The position numbers and the translations under genes were made by a program. A stretch of 64,000 nt of DNA from Bacteroidetes bacterium GWF2_33_38 (GTDB lineage: Bacteria > Bacteroidota > Bacteroidia > Bacteroidales > GWF2-33-38), in NCBI GenBank assembly GCA_001769505.1, contig MEOF01000043.1, positions 1 through 64,000 of the forward strand, written 5' to 3'. Below the pieces are notes generated by a model that worked only from the letters and a program-made list of their open reading frames with translations, did no database searches and was not told where the DNA came from. Positions 20,634-30,489 of the stretch are shown here, piece by piece. The stretch's first letter is position 1. Each line of letters begins with the position of its first letter.

Positions 20634-21524
20634 ATGTTAAAACGCACACTTTTTTTCAGTAATCCATGTTACTTATCTTCGAAAAATAACCAAATGTTAA
20701 TCACCAATAAAGATACTGGTGAAATAAAACAAGTTCCCGTTGAAGACATTGGATTTGTGATTCTTGAAAATTATCAAATAACTTTCACAACAAATTTAAT
20801 CCAATTATTATCAGAGAATAACGTTGCTGTTGTTTTTTGTAATTCAAAATTTCATCCAACTGCGATGTTGCTGAATTTAGAAAATAATCATTTGCAAAAC
20901 GAAATGTTTAGCAATCAAATAAAAGCCACAGAACCGCTGAAAAAACAATTATGGAAACAAACCATAGTTGCAAAAATCGGCAATCAAGCCAATGTTTTGA
21001 AAATTTTAGGAAAACAATATTTGAATTTGCTTGAATACGCTAAAAATGTTCAAAGTGGCGATTCTACCAATCGAGAAGCTCAAGCCGCTCGATTTTATTG
21101 GAGCGAACTTTTTGGTAAAGATTTTTTGCGAGAAAGAATTGGACATCCGCCAAATAATGCGTTGAATTATGGTTATGCAATTCTCAGAGCTGCGGTTGCT
21201 CGTGCGTTAGTTGGCTCTGGTTTGTTGCCAACGTTGGGGATTCATCATCACAACAAATACAATGCTTTTTGTTTAGCCGACGATATTATGGAACCTTACC
21301 GCCCTTATGTTGATTTGTTGGTCTATAATCTAAATCAAAATCACAAAATTGAATCTGATTTAACAACCGAACTTAAATTAGAAATTCTAAAAATTTTAAC
21401 TTTTGATGTTGAGTTTGAAAACACAAAACGTCCGCTAATGTTAGGTTTATCGCAAACAACAGCATCATTATCGAAATGTTTTGCGGGTGAAATTAAAAAA
21501 CTTTCTTTTCCCGAAATCATTTAA
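20634..21524 (+). CDS. cas1: CRISPR-associated endonuclease Cas1 (type II)
   Basis: Cas1 is the integrase that, with Cas2, inserts new spacers into the array. The 296-residue length and the N-terminal MLKRTLFFSNPCYLSSKNNQ are typical of subtype II-C. The metal-binding residues are visible: E148 in NREAQAARFYW, the histidine in LGIHHHNKYNAF (204-206) and E220 in DDIMEPYRPYVD. Cas1 and Cas2 are on the + strand, opposite to cas9, and 153 bp of AT-rich filler separate cas1 from cas2 although these usually overlap or nearly abut. No csn2 or cas4 is present, which supports II-C. Confidence 0.97.
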   Translation: MLKRTLFFSNPCYLSSKNNQMLITNKDTGEIKQVPVEDIGFVILENYQITFTTNLIQLLSENNVAVVFCNSKFHPTAMLLNLENNHLQNEMFSNQIKATEPLKKQLWKQTIVAKIGNQANVLKILGKQYLNLLEYAKNVQSGDSTNREAQAARFYWSELFGKDFLRERIGHPPNNALNYGYAILRAAVARALVGSGLLPTLGIHHHNKYNAFCLADDIMEPYRPYVDLLVYNLNQNHKIESDLTTELKLEILKILTFDVEFENTKRPLMLGLSQTTASLSKCFAGEIKKLSFPEII

Positions 21525-21677: not shown

Positions 21678-22013
21678 ATGCAAACACGTTTAAATGCTTA
21701 CAGAATTATGTGGTTATTTGTATTTTTCGATTTGCCGACAAACACTAAATTGGAACGCAAAAAAGCTTCTAAGTTTAGAAAATTTTTATTGGACGATGGT
21801 TTTACAATGATGCAATATTCGGTTTATATTCGACATTGTGCCAGTAGCGAAAGTGCCGATGTTCACCAAAAACGAATTGAAAATAACATTACGAATAAAG
21901 GACAAATTAGCATTTTGCGAATAACCGATAAACAATATGGTAACATTGCCAATTTTTGGGGCAAAACCACAACTCCACTTGAAACGGCTCCGCAACAATT
22001 GGAACTTTTTTGA
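21678..22013 (+). CDS. cas2: CRISPR-associated protein Cas2
   Basis: Cas2 is the structural partner of Cas1 in the integration complex. The 111-residue product has the ferredoxin-like pattern MWLFVFFDLPTNTKLERKKA with the conserved aspartate in FFDLP (about 15-19), then FRKFLLDDGFTMMQYSVYIRHC. The C-terminal PQQLELF tail is common in type II Cas2. It is followed by 207 bp of the same repetitive filler found before it, then by a convergent toxin-antitoxin pair. Confidence 0.95.
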   Translation: MQTRLNAYRIMWLFVFFDLPTNTKLERKKASKFRKFLLDDGFTMMQYSVYIRHCASSESADVHQKRIENNITNKGQISILRITDKQYGNIANFWGKTTTPLETAPQQLELF

Positions 22014-22220: not shown

Positions 22221-22508
22221 TTAAAGAATATTCTTTAAATCTTGTTTTCCCACAATAAACATTATTTCAACAAATTCATTATTGATTTTGAAATAAATTG
22301 TATCAGAACCACATACGCACCTTCTGTATCCTTCTTTCAAATAATCAACTGCTTCAAAAGCGTAAGGTTGCTTAGCAATGATTTCAAAACATTCGAAAAA
22401 TGAATTAAAAAACTTATCGGCTTGTGTTGTTCCAAATTTTTCAACTCCAAAATGGTGTATTCTGATTAAATCGTCTTTTGCCTCATTACTTAATCTAAAT
22501 TTCGCCAT
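22221..22508 (-). CDS. parE: ParE/RelE-superfamily toxin
   Basis: A 95-residue toxin of the ParE/RelE fold: RLSNEAKDDLIRIHHFGVEKFG at the start, a central helix pair and the C-terminal strands YRRCVCGSDTIYFKINNEFVEIMFIVGKQDL. ParE proteins poison DNA gyrase, while RelE proteins cut mRNA; the sequence alone favours ParE because its antitoxin is ParD-like. The gene overlaps the antitoxin gene by 14 bp (22495-22508), the usual coupled arrangement. It sits between cas2 and the CRISPR array. Confidence 0.88.
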   Translation of the reverse strand: MAKFRLSNEAKDDLIRIHHFGVEKFGTTQADKFFNSFFECFEIIAKQPYAFEAVDYLKEGYRRCVCGSDTIYFKINNEFVEIMFIVGKQDLKNIL

Positions 22509-22740
22509 TAAGTAATTTTTTTGATTGTTTTAAAATTTGTTCTTTTGTGTCTTCGGTAAAGCCACTATTTTCGGCTTTTTCTAATTTTAATTTTAACCAA
22601 TCAATTTCAATTTGTTGTTTTCGGGCTTGTCTGATTAAATCGTTTACAAGCTCACTTTTGCTCGAATATTCGCGTGTGTTCATTTGAGCTTGAAGCCATT
22701 CATTATTTGGCTCTGTGAAAGAAATACTTTGCCTTATCAT
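22495..22740 (-). CDS. parD: ParD-like ribbon-helix-helix antitoxin
   Basis: An 81-residue antitoxin. The N-terminal strand and two helices, MIRQSISFTEPNNEWLQAQ then YSSKSELVNDLIRQAR, are the ribbon-helix-helix DNA-binding pattern of ParD/CopG proteins. The C-terminal half, rich in K and E, would wrap the ParE toxin. The gene precedes and overlaps the toxin gene. A 20-bp near-perfect palindrome lies 14-33 bp before the start codon and is the likely site at which the complex represses its own promoter. Confidence 0.88.
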   Translation of the reverse strand: MIRQSISFTEPNNEWLQAQMNTREYSSKSELVNDLIRQARKQQIEIDWLKLKLEKAENSGFTEDTKEQILKQSKKLLNGEI

Positions 22741-22753
22741 AATTATACTTTTT

Positions 22754-22773
22754 GTGGTGTAAATTTACATCAC
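22754..22773. promoter_or_regulatory. Palindromic operator of the parDE pair
   Basis: GTGGTGTAAATTTACATCAC is a 20-bp palindrome with one mismatched pair, centred 24 bp upstream of the parD ATG. Ribbon-helix-helix antitoxins bind short palindromes at this position to autoregulate, so this is the likely operator. Confidence 0.65.
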
Positions 22774-22932
22774 TTTTGCATCAAAAGCAAATAAGTTTAC
22801 AAACCACAACGGAAAAATGTCTGAACCATAGTTATTGAGTTAAAAGTTTATCAAGTTTTTAAAGTTCCTAAAGTTGAAATCAAAGGTCATCGAGCGGAGT
22901 CGAGATGCCGATGAATTTGTAGAGTAAAAAAT

Positions 22933-23241
22933 TTAAATTCCAGAAATTGTTCCTCCAGGGATAACTCTTCTTATAACAACAATATCATTGTGAATTGTAT
23001 AAATTATGGCAATTTTTTTATAGTTAACTCGTCTTGCATTATGACCATATTTTAAAATAGATTTACGAGTTGCAATTTGGTAAATGTGAGCTTTGTTGCT
23101 TAAGCTGTTAACTTCTTTACGAATGCCGTCAACATATTGTTTTGCAGTTATTGGAGATTTGCATACAATTTCAATAAAATCAAGAATATCTTTAATATCT
23201 GAACGTGCTGATTCAGAAAATATAATTGAAAATTTTTTCAT
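22933..23241 (-). CDS. Second RelE/ParE-superfamily toxin
   Basis: A 102-residue toxin-like protein: FSIIFSESARSDIKDILDFIE at the start, a central helix (PITAKQYVDGIRKEVNSL) and a C-terminal sheet with RRVNYKKIAIIYTIHNDIVVIRRVIPGG. The order fits the ParE/RelE fold. Its start overlaps the stop of the upstream gene by 4 bp (ATGA type), as in toxin-antitoxin operons. It is clearly different in sequence from the toxin at 22221-22508, so this is not a local duplication. Confidence 0.8.
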   Translation of the reverse strand: MKKFSIIFSESARSDIKDILDFIEIVCKSPITAKQYVDGIRKEVNSLSNKAHIYQIATRKSILKYGHNARRVNYKKIAIIYTIHNDIVVIRRVIPGGTISGI

Positions 23242-23450
23242 ATTTTTCGAATGTCAACTCCATATCGATTTGACAAACCATCATAAATTTCATCAAAAAA
23301 TTCGTCAACAGTATAAAATTTTTCGGGTAAACCATCTTCTCCAACAGGTATAGGATTTGAAATTTTAACAATTTTCTTGTGTTTTTCCAATTCACGAACC
23401 AATTTGCGACCAGCAGGCGTACTTACATCTATAGTTGCGGTTACTGTCAT
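23238..23450 (-). CDS. Putative antitoxin of the second toxin-antitoxin pair
   Basis: A 70-residue protein with start MTVTATIDVSTPAGRKLVREL. I chose the ATG at 23450 over a TTG at 23471, because the promoter -7 box lies at 23474-23481. The segment TPAGRKLVRELEKHKKIVKI is a basic helix, and the rest (FYTVDEFFDEIYDGLSNRYG) resembles the acidic, toxin-binding tail of small antitoxins found with RelE/ParE toxins in Bacteroidota. No classic DNA-binding domain is obvious. The antitoxin role rests on size and on the 4-bp overlap with the toxin. Confidence 0.7.
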   Translation of the reverse strand: MTVTATIDVSTPAGRKLVRELEKHKKIVKISNPIPVGEDGLPEKFYTVDEFFDEIYDGLSNRYGVDIRKI

Positions 23451-23473
23451 ATTTTTAATTTTTGATAACAATA

Positions 23474-23505: not shown

Positions 23506-23516
23506 GTTTTGTTTTG

Positions 23517-23588
23517 AAACAAAAAAAACGGTAGAAGAACTCACAAATCTGCTCAACTACCGCTATTTTTTACAAAAATATTTACTCC
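23517..23588. repeat. 72-bp module, copy 1, left of the CRISPR array
   Basis: This copy shares 68 of 72 positions with 23862-23933. It contains an inverted pair CGGTAG...CTACCG followed by a T-rich run, so it could form a hairpin or act as a terminator. It has no ORF. Confidence 0.8.
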
Positions 23589-23861
23589 ATATTCTGTCAT
23601 GCCTGTGCAGACAGGCATCTTACATAATAATGATTCATAAATCAAATTATCCGAGTTTTATTGTTCTTTTTTCTACCGCAAAAAAGAACCAAAAACCCAC
23701 CACATAAGCCAACTTTCGCTTTTATTCTGAATTTCAATTTTTAATTTGTAGTTCTATTTCAGCTCAAGTTCACACCTTATGTGGACGCCAACCGCACGTA
23801 TTTCAAAAAATATATTTTATCAAATTACAACATTTCTAAACCGATGATTTCGCTAATTTTA
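23589..23861. other. Non-coding spacer between the two 72-bp modules
   Basis: No gene is supported. Two inverted repeats are visible: ATGCCTGT-GCAG-ACAGGCAT at 23599-23618 (8-bp perfect stem) and CCACATAAG (23700-23708) with CTTATGTGG (23776-23784). The segment lies between the second toxin-antitoxin pair and the array, where a leader could lie if spacers are added at the left end. Confidence 0.55.
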
Positions 23862-23933
23862 AAACAAAAAAAACGGTAGAAGAAATCACAAATCTGCTCA
23901 ACCACCGTTATTTTTTACAAAAATATTTACTCC
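23862..23933. repeat. 72-bp module, copy 2, adjacent to the CRISPR array
   Basis: The second copy of the module at 23517-23588, ending 35 bp before the first CRISPR repeat. Two of its four differences fall in the inverted pair (CGGTAG versus CCACCG), which weakens the stem by one pair. As the nearest conserved element to the array it is a leader candidate. Confidence 0.75.
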
Positions 23934-23968
23934 TTACAAATTGAATATTAGAAGATTACAAATCAACT

Positions 23969-25379
23969 AATATTTATGTTTCCATTTTTTAATCAAACCA
24001 CAACTAAGTCAGTATAGTATAAATTGTTTCTAAAAATATTTATGTTTCCATTTTTTAATCAAACCACAACTCATATTATCATTATGATTTAGAATAACAC
24101 AATATTTATGTTTCCATTTTTTAATCAAACCACAACAGGTGGTAAAGATAGTACAGCATTATTTCAAATATTTATGTTTCCATTTTTTAATCAAACCACA
24201 ACCGGTATCGGAATAACTGTTTAAAAATTCGTAAATATTTATGTTTCCATTTTTTAATCAAACCACAACTGCATTGATTGAGTTCGCTAACCAACTTGAA
24301 ATATTTATGTTTCCATTTTTTAATCAAACCACAACTCAAATTAATAACTTAAAATATAGAAAAAAAATATTTATGTTTCCATTTTTTAATCAAACCACAA
24401 CTACTTTGCCTTTTGCTGTGATGTAATGCTCAATATTTATGTTTCCATTTTTTAATCAAACCACAACCGAAGCACAACAATCACGTTTAAGTGCGGAAAT
24501 ATTTATGTTTCCATTTTTTAATCAAACCACAACTGAACTCCTTTAATTTGTTTACAAAATCAAATATTTATGTTTCCATTTTTTAATCAAACCACAACAC
24601 TAACATAAAAATAACTTACGATGAAAAAAATATTTATGTTTCCATTTTTTAATCAAACCACAACTAACCTTTGAGACTAAATTATCAAATTTTTAATATT
24701 TATGTTTCCATTTTTTAATCAAACCACAACCCTCTAAGGCTTCGAAATAATCGGTCAACGAATATTTATGTTTCCATTTTTTAATCAAACCACAACAACG
24801 CTGTCAGCCTCCAAAATACTTGTTTTAATATTTATGTTTCCATTTTTTAATCAAACCACAACTAGCATCTGGAACTTGGATTGACGTAACACAATATTTA
24901 TGTTTCCATTTTTTAATCAAACCACAACTACGAGTGCAGTTGAAGGACTTACTAATTTAATATTTATGTTTCCATTTTTTAATCAAACCACAACCGTATT
25001 GATTAATAACTATATCTAATAATTAATATTTATGTTTCCATTTTTTAATCAAACCACAACATCGCAACTAAAAGTGATTCTGATTGTATAATATTTATGT
25101 TTCCATTTTTTAATCAAACCACAACTAATGGGTGTTGTTTATATGATTCTTAAGAAATATTTATGTTTCCATTTTTTAATCAAACCACAACGGCTGTGTT
25201 ATTAGGCATGTTGACAAGTTAATATTTATGTTTCCATTTTTTAATCAAACCACAACAAATCACTCCAATTTATGGTGTTGGTGTTAATATTTATGTTTCC
25301 ATTTTTTAATCAAACCACAACAAACACTCCTAAATCAGATAAAAATAATGAAATATTTATGTTTCCATTTTTTAATCAA
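23969..25379 (-). CRISPR. Type II-C CRISPR array, 21 intact repeats plus one truncated, 21 spacers
   Basis: The 36-nt repeat, read on the - strand, begins GTTGTGGTTTGATTA and ends AAACATAAATATT; I saw no difference among the 21 intact copies. Repeats recur every 66 bp in most cases, with spacers of 29-31 nt. The first + strand repeat is 23969-24004 and the last intact one 25286-25321. The final unit, 25352-25379, keeps 28 bases and then diverges. The orientation is set by the GTTGTGG start and by complementarity to the tracrRNA anti-repeats at 30259-30271 and 30401-30430. Transcription is therefore from right to left. No spacer origin can be given without a search. Confidence 0.98.
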
Positions 25380-25434
25380 TTGTGGAGCGTAGCGTAACAA
25401 TCGCAAACACCATAAAAAACAAACAATACGTTTG

Positions 25435-25496
25435 CAAACCACAACGGGAAATCGAACTTAATCAATTTCTGCACAACGATTTCCCGTTGTGGTTTG
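25435..25496. repeat. Perfect 20-bp inverted repeat carrying the CRISPR repeat end
   Basis: Left arm 25435-25454 begins CAAACCACAACGGGAAA and the right arm 25477-25496 is its exact reverse complement, with a 22-nt loop. The first 11 bases of the arm, CAAACCACAAC, equal the end of the CRISPR repeat. A related copy, CAAACCACAACGGAAAA, is at 22800-22816. Confidence 0.85.
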
Positions 25497-25507
25497 GTTG
25501 TTTAGGA

Positions 25508-25529
25508 TTTGACATCTTTATATGTCAAA
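25508..25529. terminator. Small hairpin between array and cas9
   Basis: TTTGACAT (25508-25515), loop CTTTAT, ATGTCAAA (25522-25529): an 8-bp perfect stem. It may end transcription of cas9 or of array transcripts, but no clean T-run follows on either strand, so the terminator call is weak. Confidence 0.35.
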
Positions 25530-25549
25530 GAACGTTTTGTGTTGTTTCC

Positions 25550-25630
25550 AACTTTGTCAAAGTTTATCAAAACTAATTCTGCAAAATAATCAAAATCAGC
25601 ACATTTTGCAAGTTCAACTTTGACAAAGTT
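25550..25630. repeat. Inverted-repeat element copy B (15-bp arms, MITE-like)
   Basis: Arms AACTTTGTCAAAGTT (25550-25564) and AACTTTGACAAAGTT (25616-25630) are exact reverse complements; the unit is 81 bp. It sits 17 bp past the cas9 stop codon. The interior best matches copy C when reversed (shared GCTGATT and GCA blocks), but the orientation is not certain. Confidence 0.78.
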
Positions 25631-25647
25631 TTACGAAGAATTAAAAC

Positions 25648-28600
25648 TTATGAATTTAATTCAATAAATGCTTTAGAAAAATTTACATCAATTTTACCCA
25701 AAGCATCTATTTTTGCTGGTATAACTCTTAATGTTGAAGGGCTTCTTCTTAAAACAATTTCTGTCAAATCTGATAAGTTACTTTCACTTTTAATAGGGTT
25801 TGGTGTACCCGTAATTCCAAGAGCACAATTATGCCGTTTTAAAATAATTATCCCATTTTCATCAAATTGAACAAGCACAAATAATCTATTTTGTATATCA
25901 CTTTTGCAATTCCAATCAATTTCATCAAAGTGTTTATCAAAAACTAAAAACATATCATTTTGATGTAATTTTAATATTGGTTTGGAATCTTCTATACTAA
26001 AACGACCTTTAACGATGTTGTAGTGATTGATTAATTTATAATTTCTGTTTTTAAATTTTCCTGTTTCATCAGGAATTAAATCTCCAAAAATTCTTGCTTC
26101 ATAATTACTTCCGGGTTCTTTGGCAAAATAATAATTATGCTGCCAATCATACTCTGACTTATCTATTTTCCTATATTCTTTATAGGGCTTAATATTTGTA
26201 TCTGTTTTCCCTGATTTTAATCTTATATTTTTAATTACCATTCTTCCAATCTGTTTATTTTTCTTTTCATCGTAAAACTCTGGAAGAATTATAACGCCAT
26301 CGCTTTCTTTCAACAATATTTCCAAGCCTTTTGTTCGAGTAAGATTGGCCACTTCATTTGTGATTTTCTCATTGTAATTTACTCTTTTCTTTTCATCAAT
26401 ATCGTATCTAATTGTTGCATTAAACAACATTTCAATAAGTTCTTTAAAGTCGGAAAATTCAGTTGAAAAATTTTGTTTTGTAATATTATCTATCACTATT
26501 TCTTTTTTCTTATCATCTTTTTTAATTTTTTCATAAATTTTAAAAGCAATACCTTTTTTGTGTTCTATTTCCTTTTCTGCAGCAACTTCATTTTCTTTTA
26601 CAGTAAATTCCATTAATTTTTCCCAACCTTTAGTGTCAGCAAGATTTAATAATCTAATTTTTATTCCATCATCAATAATATCTTCAATGTCTCCACCACT
26701 TATTTTTGTAATTGGTTTTCGTTGTGCGAATATAAGCTTGTCATTCTTTTTAATGTGTGCATAAGGATTTTGGCTATTTAATTTACCTCTCAAATTTTGT
26801 TTTGTATTATTTCCTTTTTCAACTGCATCTAAAAATGGTTTAACTCTATCAATTTGTTTATGAAATATTAAAACTTCATTATGAAGATTGTGCATTCTAT
26901 TGGCAAAATCTTGCATTGGTTGTTTAATTTTGTATTTTGGATTATTATTTCCCTTGAAATAATCACTTTCGTAATTGTGAAAAGCTTCTGAAATCAAATT
27001 TGCAGTTCCTTTTTCAACGCAGGCAACAGTTACAGCATCAATGCAATGATGTATATGATTATCTCTATTTTTTATTTCATATTCTTTTTCTAAACCCCAC
27101 ATTTTACGCAATGTTTCTGTTATTTTACCATTAACTACGTTCACTTTTTTAAAATATGAATTTAAATAAGCTCTGGCGTATTTTGCAATTATTCTAGTAT
27201 CAACAAGATTGGCATTTGTAAATTGATTGGTTATTTCTACACATTCAAAATTTTTATATTTTTTGCTCAAATAATCTAACTTTATTTTTGTGTAATGTGC
27301 TTTTGTCATTACTTCATCGTGAGAAATTGGGTCTGTAATTGCTTTTGCTGCATTCTTATATTTTTTATATTCTTCTTTCAAACTCCAAAGACTAACATTC
27401 CATTGAATACTAACCTTTTGTAGTTGACTTGAAATTGAATATGATTTTAGATTTTTATCTCTATTTCTAATTATAGTTTCTATATTTATTAATTCTCCAT
27501 TATAGTTTGTATTTAAAAGACCTGGAAGAATATCTTTTTTAATTGTTCGGTTAAAATCAGCATTTGCAAGTGTTTTGTTCGATAATGAATTATCGTGATA
27601 TTTACTTCTTGGAATTGTATGTTCTATATCATAAGTTGTTTTACCATCAAGAAAATCGCAAATGGATATTGGTTTATAACTAGTATATAAACATTGATGA
27701 TTTTGCTCTTTCCACAAAATATATTTTATAATATCTGTATCCGTTGGATTTATCTCTTTTTGACATTCTTTAGGATAAGTATTAATAATTTCAGTTCGAG
27801 CCCATTCTCTAATAATTTCTTGTTCTTTTTGCCATAGAGCAATTGCTTTTCTATAACTTGCACTATTTATTTCGCCTGCAACTTCAACATTCACTTCTGT
27901 ATCTTTATCAACAATTCCTTTTTTAATTAACTCGTTACACAATCTTTTTATTTGATGCATTGACCTGTTAAAAACAGGGTTTTTTATTGAACTTATTTCG
28001 GGGTTTCCTAATTTTTTATCCACCTGTTTATAAACTTCCATTGCAGAAGGATGATATAATTTTGAAACATCAATTTTATCTTTTGGAAAAGCTTCTGTAA
28101 GTTTGTCAAGAATGAATTCGGGTATTGTTTTAGTTGAAATGTAAATTACTTCCTTTGAAGATTTCTCTAAAGAAACAAGCGAAAATTTATCCCAACAATT
28201 TTTAAAAAGTTGGTCTTTTTCTTCAGGTTTTAATTTGTTATATTCCGTTTCTCCAATCCATTCAATTATTTCTTTTTTTATTCCATTTTTATGTGCGTCA
28301 ATACTAATTTCATTGTTTCCAAGGCTTTCTTTATTTTCTTTTACTTTGCTTATGTAATTGTTTGCAATGCCAATGTTTTGTTTTTCAAGGTTATGAATAT
28401 TAATTGCTTCATTTATTTTTTCAGAAACTATTTTTTGTTCATTTTCAGACAATTTTCGGTTAAGCACTTCTGAAATATTCGCTAAAAATACTGCATTAGA
28501 ATATATTTCTCCTTTTTCGAGAAAAGGAACAATTTTTTTAAGAGCCGATTTACTCAAATTTCCATAACCTTTTACCAATTTAATTTTCTGAAAATCTTCA

Positions 28601-30216
28601 ATTCCTTTTTCATCAAGTTTAAGATGTTTTTCTGCAAATTCTTTTCTGATTGTATTTCTGTCTTTTTTTCCAAAATCATCTAAAAACAAACAATGCCAAA
28701 TATCTTCAACACTTATTTGTGTTTTGTTTTTTTCATCTTTGTATCCACTATTTAAAAACGGTATTTCATTGTATTTATCTTTACCCAATAGCTTTGATAA
28801 AGCAGAAATAGTAGGACAAGCAGAAAACTTTTTATCTAATGGAAAATTAAAAAATATGTTTGCAACGCCACCCTCAATAATATTTCCTTTATAAAAAACT
28901 TCTTGTGGTTTTTTAATATAGCAATACATTTCTTCACCGCTTAATTTATTTGCTATTTTAACAAAATCGAAATCTGTTTTTTGCAGAAATAATGGTTTAA
29001 TTAATTCTTTTTCTTCTTTCGTTAAAAAATCTAATTTTGTTTTTTCTCTACCTATTTTTATTCTATTTATACTTTCCCACATTCTAAATTCTTCAAAAAG
29101 TGGATGTGAAATAGCTATTCTTTTTCGTTTGGGTTCTAAAGGACACATTGCAACCATTCCTTTTTGGCTTTTTAGCGGTCTTTGATAAAAAATAGCGTGA
29201 TGAAGTTTTTCTTTTAAATCCTTTTCGATATTTTGCTTATCACAGATGTAATTAAACTCTGCTAAATAATGCTCGTTTCTATGCGTGTATCTTCCTCTTA
29301 ATTTAGTAATCAAACCTGTTTTTTTATCTGCTTTTGCATAAATTGAATAGAAAAAACTTCCCATTGTTGGAGCACATTCACCATTTTTCACAGCAATTTT
29401 AATATTATCGGAAAGCTCCCCAATAGATTTCATTACTTTGCCCAAGTTTTCGGGTTTATCAAATTCTGTAATTATAAAATCTTTGATTTTATCAAAATTA
29501 ATCTCAGTTTTCAGTAATTTAATAATTTTGTTTCCTAATGTATTTACAACTTTATCGCTTTTTCTATTATCTAATAAAACTTGAAACGGTTCTTTAAAAG
29601 AAGTATAATCATTTGTTTCTTCAAGCAATTTTCTAACTTCTGTTTTGAATAATTCTAATTTATCGTCTGATTGTTCTTCTTCTCCGTTTGAAAGATAACC
29701 TCTTCTTTGTGCTAAATGATAAAAAGCTCTGCCAAGTTGTAATTTCCCTTGTTCACTATTCATTAAACCATCTTTTGTTGCTGCTAAATGTCGCAAATAA
29801 TATGGTTGTTTTAATTTTTCGGTTTCTCTATTTCCATTCTTTTTCCCGGTTCTTTGCCAATCTATAAATTTTTCATTTTCGCAAGGATATATTTTTTTAT
29901 TTTTCCAATTTCCCAACTCATTTTCTTCAAATTTTGGGCATAATCCAAATTCATTAAGTACTTTTAGAGTAGCAATTTTTCTTAAAATTAATCTTTCTAA
30001 TCGTCTTCTTGCTCCTCTAAAACCTGTTCTTTCTGCTGCTTTTGAATTTTCATCGGCATTTACTCCTTTTGGAAAAATATAACTTCCTTTGGTTGGAATT
30101 AAATCTCCATTTTTATCTAATTTTTCAAGAAAATCATATTTTCCATCTTGTTTTTCAATTACAGCCCAACCAATACTGTTAGTTCCTAAATCGAGACCGA
30201 GTTTAATTTTTCTCAT
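25648..30216 (-). CDS. cas9: Type II-C CRISPR effector nuclease Cas9
   Basis: Cas9 cuts both strands of DNA matched by a crRNA-tracrRNA guide. The product has 1522 residues, at the long end for II-C and usual for Bacteroidota forms. RuvC-I is at the N-terminus (IKLGLDLGTNSIGWAV, D9), followed by an arginine-rich bridge helix (RGARRRLERLILRK). RuvC-II has E778 in VNVEVAGEI; the HNH domain has TTYDIEHTIPRS with D863 and H866 and the asparagine in ANADFNRTIK; RuvC-III has HHCIDAV with H1056-H1057 and D1060. All catalytic residues are intact. A promoter and two tracrRNA-like genes lie upstream. Unusually, cas9 is not joined to cas1-cas2. Confidence 0.98.
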   Translation of the reverse strand: MRKIKLGLDLGTNSIGWAVIEKQDGKYDFLEKLDKNGDLIPTKGSYIFPKGVNADENSKAAERTGFRGARRRLERLILRKIATLKVLNEFGLCPKFEENELGNWKNKKIYPCENEKFIDWQRTGKKNGNRETEKLKQPYYLRHLAATKDGLMNSEQGKLQLGRAFYHLAQRRGYLSNGEEEQSDDKLELFKTEVRKLLEETNDYTSFKEPFQVLLDNRKSDKVVNTLGNKIIKLLKTEINFDKIKDFIITEFDKPENLGKVMKSIGELSDNIKIAVKNGECAPTMGSFFYSIYAKADKKTGLITKLRGRYTHRNEHYLAEFNYICDKQNIEKDLKEKLHHAIFYQRPLKSQKGMVAMCPLEPKRKRIAISHPLFEEFRMWESINRIKIGREKTKLDFLTKEEKELIKPLFLQKTDFDFVKIANKLSGEEMYCYIKKPQEVFYKGNIIEGGVANIFFNFPLDKKFSACPTISALSKLLGKDKYNEIPFLNSGYKDEKNKTQISVEDIWHCLFLDDFGKKDRNTIRKEFAEKHLKLDEKGIEDFQKIKLVKGYGNLSKSALKKIVPFLEKGEIYSNAVFLANISEVLNRKLSENEQKIVSEKINEAINIHNLEKQNIGIANNYISKVKENKESLGNNEISIDAHKNGIKKEIIEWIGETEYNKLKPEEKDQLFKNCWDKFSLVSLEKSSKEVIYISTKTIPEFILDKLTEAFPKDKIDVSKLYHPSAMEVYKQVDKKLGNPEISSIKNPVFNRSMHQIKRLCNELIKKGIVDKDTEVNVEVAGEINSASYRKAIALWQKEQEIIREWARTEIINTYPKECQKEINPTDTDIIKYILWKEQNHQCLYTSYKPISICDFLDGKTTYDIEHTIPRSKYHDNSLSNKTLANADFNRTIKKDILPGLLNTNYNGELINIETIIRNRDKNLKSYSISSQLQKVSIQWNVSLWSLKEEYKKYKNAAKAITDPISHDEVMTKAHYTKIKLDYLSKKYKNFECVEITNQFTNANLVDTRIIAKYARAYLNSYFKKVNVVNGKITETLRKMWGLEKEYEIKNRDNHIHHCIDAVTVACVEKGTANLISEAFHNYESDYFKGNNNPKYKIKQPMQDFANRMHNLHNEVLIFHKQIDRVKPFLDAVEKGNNTKQNLRGKLNSQNPYAHIKKNDKLIFAQRKPITKISGGDIEDIIDDGIKIRLLNLADTKGWEKLMEFTVKENEVAAEKEIEHKKGIAFKIYEKIKKDDKKKEIVIDNITKQNFSTEFSDFKELIEMLFNATIRYDIDEKKRVNYNEKITNEVANLTRTKGLEILLKESDGVIILPEFYDEKKNKQIGRMVIKNIRLKSGKTDTNIKPYKEYRKIDKSEYDWQHNYYFAKEPGSNYEARIFGDLIPDETGKFKNRNYKLINHYNIVKGRFSIEDSKPILKLHQNDMFLVFDKHFDEIDWNCKSDIQNRLFVLVQFDENGIIILKRHNCALGITGTPNPIKSESNLSDLTEIVLRRSPSTLRVIPAKIDALGKIDVNFSKAFIELNS

Positions 30217-30233: not shown

Positions 30234-30265
30234 CAAAAATATTATTTACATTTGTCATAATCAAA
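30234..30265 (-). promoter_or_regulatory. cas9 promoter inside a degenerate CRISPR repeat
   Basis: On the - strand TTTG (30262-30265), 20 bases, then TATTTTTG (30234-30241) match the Bacteroidota TTTG/TAnnTTTG consensus exactly, 18 bp before the cas9 ATG. The TTTG lies in TTGTGATTTGATTA, a near-copy of the CRISPR repeat start TTGTGGTTTGATTA, so the promoter and the anti-repeat of the first tracrRNA overlap on opposite strands. Confidence 0.75.
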
Positions 30266-30360
30266 TCACAATAAGGCGAAGTCCAAAAGACAAAGCCGTA
30301 GAATGATCCGCAAGGTGACAAAATTTAGAGCCCTCAGTTTACTGGGGGTTCGTTGTTTTT
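30255..30360 (+). ncRNA. tracrRNA-like gene 1 (divergent, expanded nexus)
   Basis: The anti-repeat core AATCAAATCACAA (30259-30271) matches 12 of 13 bases of the repeat complement. It is followed by AAGGC, an expanded stem with GGC (30275-30277) and GCC (30295-30297) around an inner GTC/GAC hairpin, then CGTAG. A 10-bp terminal stem GAGCCCTCAG (30328-30337), loop TTTA, CTGGGGGTTC (30342-30351) is followed by GTTGTTTTT. A TACATTTG at 30247-30254 fits a -7 box just upstream. The layout parallels gene 2, but the scaffold differs. It may be a second functional tracrRNA, a regulator or a decaying copy. Confidence 0.65.
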
Positions 30361-30397
30361 ATTTACAAGTTCAATTTAGTCTTAAAAAATATAATAT

Positions 30398-30489
30398 CAA
30401 AATTATAATTCCATTTTAATCTTACCACAATAAGGCTATATGCCGTAGGTGAAAACCTTTAGTCCTGCTTCGGTGGGACTTTTTGTTTT
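30398..30489 (+). ncRNA. tracrRNA gene 2 (canonical II-C type)
   Basis: The anti-repeat at 30401-30430 contains TTCCATTTT, AATC and ACCACAA, pairing with most of the 36-nt repeat apart from a 2-nt gap and a 2-nt mismatch, as is normal for tracrRNA bulges. Then follow the nexus GGC-TATAT-GCC (30434-30444), a second stem AGGT-GAAA-ACCT (30447-30458) and a terminator AGTCCTGC-TTCG-GTGGGACT (30461-30480) with TTTTGTTTT. This is the usual Bacteroidota II-C scaffold. It would guide processing of the crRNA and activate Cas9. Confidence 0.9.

Follow-up and report, generated by a model that had tools for sequence, protein, structure and literature searches.

The CRISPR-Cas locus and the hairpin beside cas9

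The window, by which we mean the whole stretch of 64,000 nucleotides analysed here (contig MEOF01000043.1 of Bacteroidetes bacterium GWF2_33_38), carries a type II-C CRISPR-Cas locus with cas9, a type II cas1, cas2 and a predicted tracrRNA; a plain look through the open reading frames at 15000-36000 showed no recognisable csn2 or cas4. A hairpin lies between cas9 and the CRISPR array, 151 nt past the cas9 stop codon. The features of the locus are as follows.

20634-21524, plus strand: cas1 (type II)
21678-22013, plus strand: cas2
22779-22816, plus strand: partial copy of 25411-25451, before parD
23929-23968, minus strand: flank past the last repeat (AGTTG...CTTCTAAT), kept in relatives; predicted acquisition leader
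23969-25321, minus strand (crRNA sense): CRISPR array of 21 intact, identical 36-nt repeats, between cas2 and cas9
25352-25379, minus strand: remainder of an extra repeat, nucleotides 9-36 (the "truncated repeat")
25380-25434, no strand assigned: 55 nt interrupting the extra repeat, with repeat nucleotides 9-11 (TTG) on both sides
25435-25454, minus strand: hairpin 3' arm, of which 25435-25445 are nucleotides 1-11 of the extra (outermost) repeat
25455-25476, minus strand: hairpin loop, 22 nt, apparently inverted relative to the loops of relatives
25477-25496, minus strand: hairpin 5' arm (array strand), anti-repeat CAAACCACAAC plus 9 nt
25500-25528, minus strand: upstream block common to relatives, TTGACAT (25522-25528) ... 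CTAAAC (25500-25505)
25648-30216, minus strand: cas9, 1522 aa
30405-30486, plus strand: predicted canonical tracrRNA, with its anti-repeat at 30411-30430 and a terminator near 30486

On the minus strand the order is thus cas9, the TTGACAT...CTAAAC block, the anti-repeat arm, the loop, the second arm, the 55 nt, the repeat remainder and the array. The block may be promoter-like or an extended anti-repeat. As an earlier note on this DNA had claimed, the arms form a perfect 20-bp inverted repeat (20 nt, 100% complementary, 22 nt apart) and contain 11 bases of the repeat end: the arm at 25435-25454 reads CAAACCACAACGGGAAATCG, and CAAACCACAAC is the reverse complement of CRISPR repeat nucleotides 1-11. 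On both strands, the fold of 25380-25647 lies well under those of 200 dinucleotide shuffles, with a z of about -7 that owes part to a second hairpin at 25549-25631. The inverted pair found there, AACTTTGTCAAAGTT / AACTTTGACAAAGTT, has related copies at many sites in the genome. An Rfam scan of the window at the gathering threshold returned no family. The note would have abandoned its reading had the hairpin been a general repeat of the genome; a genome-wide search found CAAACCACAACNGNAAA with 0 mismatches at only three places in 3.9 Mb, the two arms and the near copy at 22800-22816, all at the CRISPR locus, showing that the hairpin is not of that kind.

Two ParE-type toxin genes lie between the array and cas2 (22221-23471), one at 22221-22508 with a ParD-like partner at 22495-22740 and the other at 22933-23241 with a small neighbour at 23238-23471. 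The segments 23512-23591 and 23857-23936 are 80-nt copies that are 94% identical, and one of them adjoins the predicted acquisition end of the array. The same genome has a second, different type II locus (G000:C20; L018:7102-12948) with a cas9 of 1302 aa, cas1, cas2 and a tracrRNA-like sequence upstream of cas9; its contig ends past cas2. A 16-nt likeness near this second cas9 was attributed to chance (E 0.14, inside a coding gene).

The hairpin in related loci

The search of relatives that the earlier note had proposed, for the hairpin beside related II-C arrays, found it at 13 related loci, in each case at this very boundary and next to a first repeat that is whole. Among six loci identified by Cas9 similarity, it immediately precedes an intact first repeat in five (L031, L032, L033, L034 and L036). 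The sixth, L035, and the 54% Cas9 relative G006/L053 are without it, and in both the gene order is cas9-cas1-cas2-array. A hairpin pattern was sought in the 397 genomes of the family to which L033's genome belongs (Mariniflexile maritimum, Flavobacteriaceae), giving matches in 9, one of them L033's own genome, and none with the reversed pattern as control; in all 9 the hairpin is at the array start, with no repeat ahead of it. Eight of the 13 relatives were picked by this pattern, which required repeat nucleotides 1-14 to be intact, and the unselected hairpin rate is only 5/6, or 5/7 counting G006/L053. The first repeat equals the consensus in 12/13 relatives, although for 8 of them the pattern itself demanded intact nucleotides 1-14; among the unselected loci the figure is 5/5. 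A narrower pattern (loop 3-33), blind to the window's own long loop, matched in 1/395 genomes of the class. One pattern match in L034's genome (L040), located within an array, was discarded as due to chance. The comparison left out L054 and L055 (34-36% Cas9 relatives), whose arrays were missed by the repeat expression, and other Cas9 relatives of about 36-40% identity. Plasmids searched with Cas9 and phages searched with the region gave no match.

At the eight pattern-found loci, Cas9 is only 27-36% identical to that of the window over the aligned part, and the hairpin therefore tracks the array and its layout and not one Cas9. In all 14 hairpin loci cas9 lies upstream of the hairpin on the same strand (with parDE in between in L057). 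The arrangement cas9-hairpin-array, with converging cas2-cas1 on the far side, is found in 11/14 loci including the window, and the remaining three have no cas1 or cas2 within the available stretch.

A helix of Watson-Crick pairs only, running through the junction, measures 20 bp in the window and 12-21 bp at the first repeats of 11/13 relatives; in L034 (0) and L057 (8) it is broken by G-U. The maximum was 7 bp among 356 internal repeats (0 at the window's 21 internal repeats) and 12 in 4500 shuffles. We chose this count because two others failed to discriminate first repeats, namely paired repeat bases in minimum-energy folds and helices with G-U allowed, in which 85/356 internal repeats reach 11 bp.

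Across the 14 loci, the stem table has 248 Watson-Crick, 11 G-U and 14 unpaired cells (273 in total), and stem positions 12, 13, 14, 16 and 17, which lie outside the repeat, have changed on both sides. In the 13 distinct stems, 94.5% of cells pair and 22 cells have changed on both sides. The covariation score was 0.264 versus 0.115 in shuffled data (0/500 as high), and versions in which the arms were slid scored at most 0.123. Less decisive were the number of pairs changed on both sides (39/500 shuffles as high) and the number of pair types (118/500). The arms had been picked by best complementarity ahead of counting, which biases these figures towards structure, and kinship among the sequences inflates counts of this sort; with arms so chosen, the stem is conserved as structure and not as sequence alone. 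The suggestion that the hairpin is a side-product of Cas1-Cas2 does not survive the finding of 13 other loci in which the hairpin recurs, the first repeat is whole and the stem changes are compensatory.

Array polarity and apparent rearrangement of the window copy

A motif, AGTTG...CTTCT, lies past the last repeat in L031-L034, L056-L060 and L062, and in the window as AGTTGATTTGTAATCTTCTAAT; it is divergent in L063 and absent in L036 and L061, the latter cut by a contig end. In F. columnare, according to the available excerpts of PMC8092290, repeats of this kind have the leader on their base-36 side. Because the conserved flank is at the other end, and given the polarity in F. columnare (same excerpts), the hairpin would be at the oldest, crRNA-5' end of the array. 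In the convergent loci the array 3' end is the cas2 side, which fits a hairpin at the 5' end. The earlier idea of a structured leader holds insofar as a structured element does stand at the array 5' boundary and is kept in relatives; this is, however, the end opposite the predicted acquisition leader.

In the window, repeat nucleotides 1-11 are at 25435-25445 and nucleotides 9-36 at 25352-25379, and we therefore regard them as one extra repeat split by 25380-25434. Compared with the genome, this 55-nt stretch has no other good match except for a partial likeness at 22779-22816. The near copy that the earlier note had placed at 22800-22816 is thus real, and the likeness reaches further, over 22779-22816 (80% identical to 25411-25451, E 1e-4). 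The 55 nt may have arisen through an insertion that duplicated TTG, or else through recombination involving the partial copy at 22779-22816. A candidate terminator in the interruption (CAAACGTATTGTTTGTTTTTT, array strand) has only 2 G-C pairs and was rejected; the terminator scan gave no call.

The window loop aligns better to the loops of relatives when it is reversed (12/13 comparisons, the exception being L063), several of the margins being small. At the eight long-loop relatives (L032, L033, L036 and L056-L060), the loop contains a copy with which the 5' arm can pair alternatively; the window differs in that its loop pairs with the 3' arm instead of the 5' arm. The simple reading of these alignments, as an inference, is that the window copy has been rearranged, its loop flipped between identical arms, and an inversion seems to have touched this copy of the hairpin. 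The view of the region as a relic of an inverted repeat is borne out to the extent that the window loop looks inverted, but the 13 other loci, with their whole first repeats and compensatory stem changes, indicate that the hairpin is not merely a relic.

Proposed function and known systems

In type II systems, an extra first repeat that is transcribed from upstream and pairs with tracrRNA yields a crRNA with a guide that is not a spacer. We consider it probable on balance that the element is an upstream/extra-repeat hairpin at the cas9-proximal, oldest, crRNA-5' array boundary, which masks the extra repeat from tracrRNA and so suppresses extraneous crRNA. In transcripts that reach the array from cas9 or start at a promoter upstream, the anti-repeat arm would fold over the initial 11-14 nt of the extra repeat, the required pairing site of tracrRNA. 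Pairing in cis, an anti-repeat over 11-14 nt is expected to compete well with tracrRNA, and Cas9 would be spared loading with an extraneous crRNA whose guide comes from outside the array. In the window, the splitting of the extra repeat by 55 nt would be a second block with the same outcome; the split should already prevent extraneous crRNA, and the window hairpin may no longer have a role. If promoters lie within these II-C repeats themselves, transcription may seldom come in from upstream. The crRNA-suppressing function is one that we infer from sequence.

A canonical tracrRNA is encoded upstream of cas9, on the opposite strand, at all 13 loci examined. For the window, the predicted energy of its duplex with the repeat is -23.8 kcal/mol versus -36.3 for the hairpin region, a rough comparison because the sequence lengths differ; L057 and L063 show the opposite order, the tracrRNA-repeat duplex being the stronger (-31.3 versus -26.9 and -28.4 versus -27.0 for the hairpin). 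At 30255-30364 on the plus strand, the window has another tracrRNA-like element, which includes an anti-repeat (TAATCAAATCACAATAAGG) and a terminator of its own. It is present 29-32 nt upstream of cas9 in all six long-Cas9 loci (the window, L031-L034 and L036) and not at that place in seven other loci examined; L060 has a similar fragment farther upstream. This second RNA of long-Cas9 loci complicates the pairing picture. That the hairpin might itself be a tracrRNA gene is suggested by its 11-nt anti-repeat. This reading is ruled out, for practical purposes, by the canonical tracrRNAs upstream of cas9 at 13/13 loci examined (anti-repeat, AAGGCTATATGCC-type hairpin and terminator): a tracrRNA has a nexus hairpin and terminator after its anti-repeat, whereas the hairpin has the anti-repeat only, is without such a tail and would pair with itself.

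RNase III has an established use in type II systems. The 20-bp duplex could be a site at which RNase III cuts, parting cas9 message and pre-crRNA and in doing so destroying the extra repeat, and the long, near-perfect stems and the position of cas9 upstream on the same strand at 14/14 loci are in favour of such a site. We regard this as possible though unlikely; its outcome overlaps with that of masking, with which it is compatible, and sequence alone does not separate the two. Doubtful, too, and somewhat more so, is a bistable RNA switch, responding to transcription speed or to the level of tracrRNA or Cas9, that would mask or free array transcripts coming from the cas9 side and of which the window would hold a flipped version. 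It draws on the two possible partners of the 5' arm, the loop copy (7-10 bp) or the 3' arm (long stem), in 8/8 long-loop loci, where 3-16 of 300 shuffles fold as well.

The structured character of the element and its distance of 151 nt from the cas9 stop would also suit a hairpin that terminates the cas9 message or stabilises its 3' end. In the relatives, though, no U-run follows the stem and the repeat comes next; the terminator scan gave none on the array strand and only one plus-strand site, inside the hairpin; and the anti-repeat part would be superfluous, making this function improbable. A DNA-level element (a cruciform or Cas1-Cas2 boundary) or a relic of repeat inversion would account for the perfect palindromic arms, the inverted loop and the interrupted repeat of the window. 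It is about equally improbable when set against the 13 relatives that have the hairpin with a whole first repeat, their G-U pairs (11/273 cells), acceptable in RNA but not in a DNA palindrome, and the predicted acquisition flank at the opposite array end (polarity from excerpts of PMC8092290).

Hairpins with an extra repeat have precedents, and a leader-repeat hairpin in type II-A is said to have been reported by Liao et al. in 2022. In line with such hairpins, the extra repeat here is paired over its 5' part (nucleotides 1-11 in the window) by sequence upstream of the array. The II-A hairpin is described by Feussner et al. 2025 (PMC12080349); there too, RNA from upstream pairs with the first, extra repeat, a pairing believed to keep extraneous crRNA from forming, but the II-A extra repeat is at the acquisition end, whereas the one described here adjoins cas9 at the oldest end, with the conserved flank at the opposite end (polarity from excerpts of PMC8092290). 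Being at the oldest end, the present hairpin cannot serve the newest spacer. In type VI, the Cas13 leader-repeat hairpin likewise pairs with the repeat that forms an extraneous crRNA, according to excerpts of PMC13187072, although the effector described there targets RNA and is tracrRNA-independent. The F. columnare II-C locus, compared by its description in excerpts of PMC8092290, shares 36-bp repeats starting GTTGT, parDE in the locus and a base-36-side leader; those excerpts mention no hairpin at the opposite end.

Closest are the II-C loci surveyed by Feussner et al. 2025 (PMC12080349), which share the subtype, the array end and the problem to be solved. In that survey the II-C extra repeat is at the same array end, 60% of extra repeats are mutated, as is the one in the window, and the mechanisms given are terminators, hairpins in the guide part and repeat mutations; a hairpin with the extra repeat itself is not reported, and no leader-repeat hairpins were identified in II-C. 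Searches of the open-access literature gave hairpins of the leader-repeat type in II-A and type VI, other mechanisms in II-C, and no hairpin involving a II-C extra repeat. Contrary to the published survey, a group of II-C loci of Flavobacteriaceae and other Bacteroidota do have extra-repeat hairpins, and the place of these hairpins at the oldest end could make it possible to separate the two roles proposed for the II-A hairpins.
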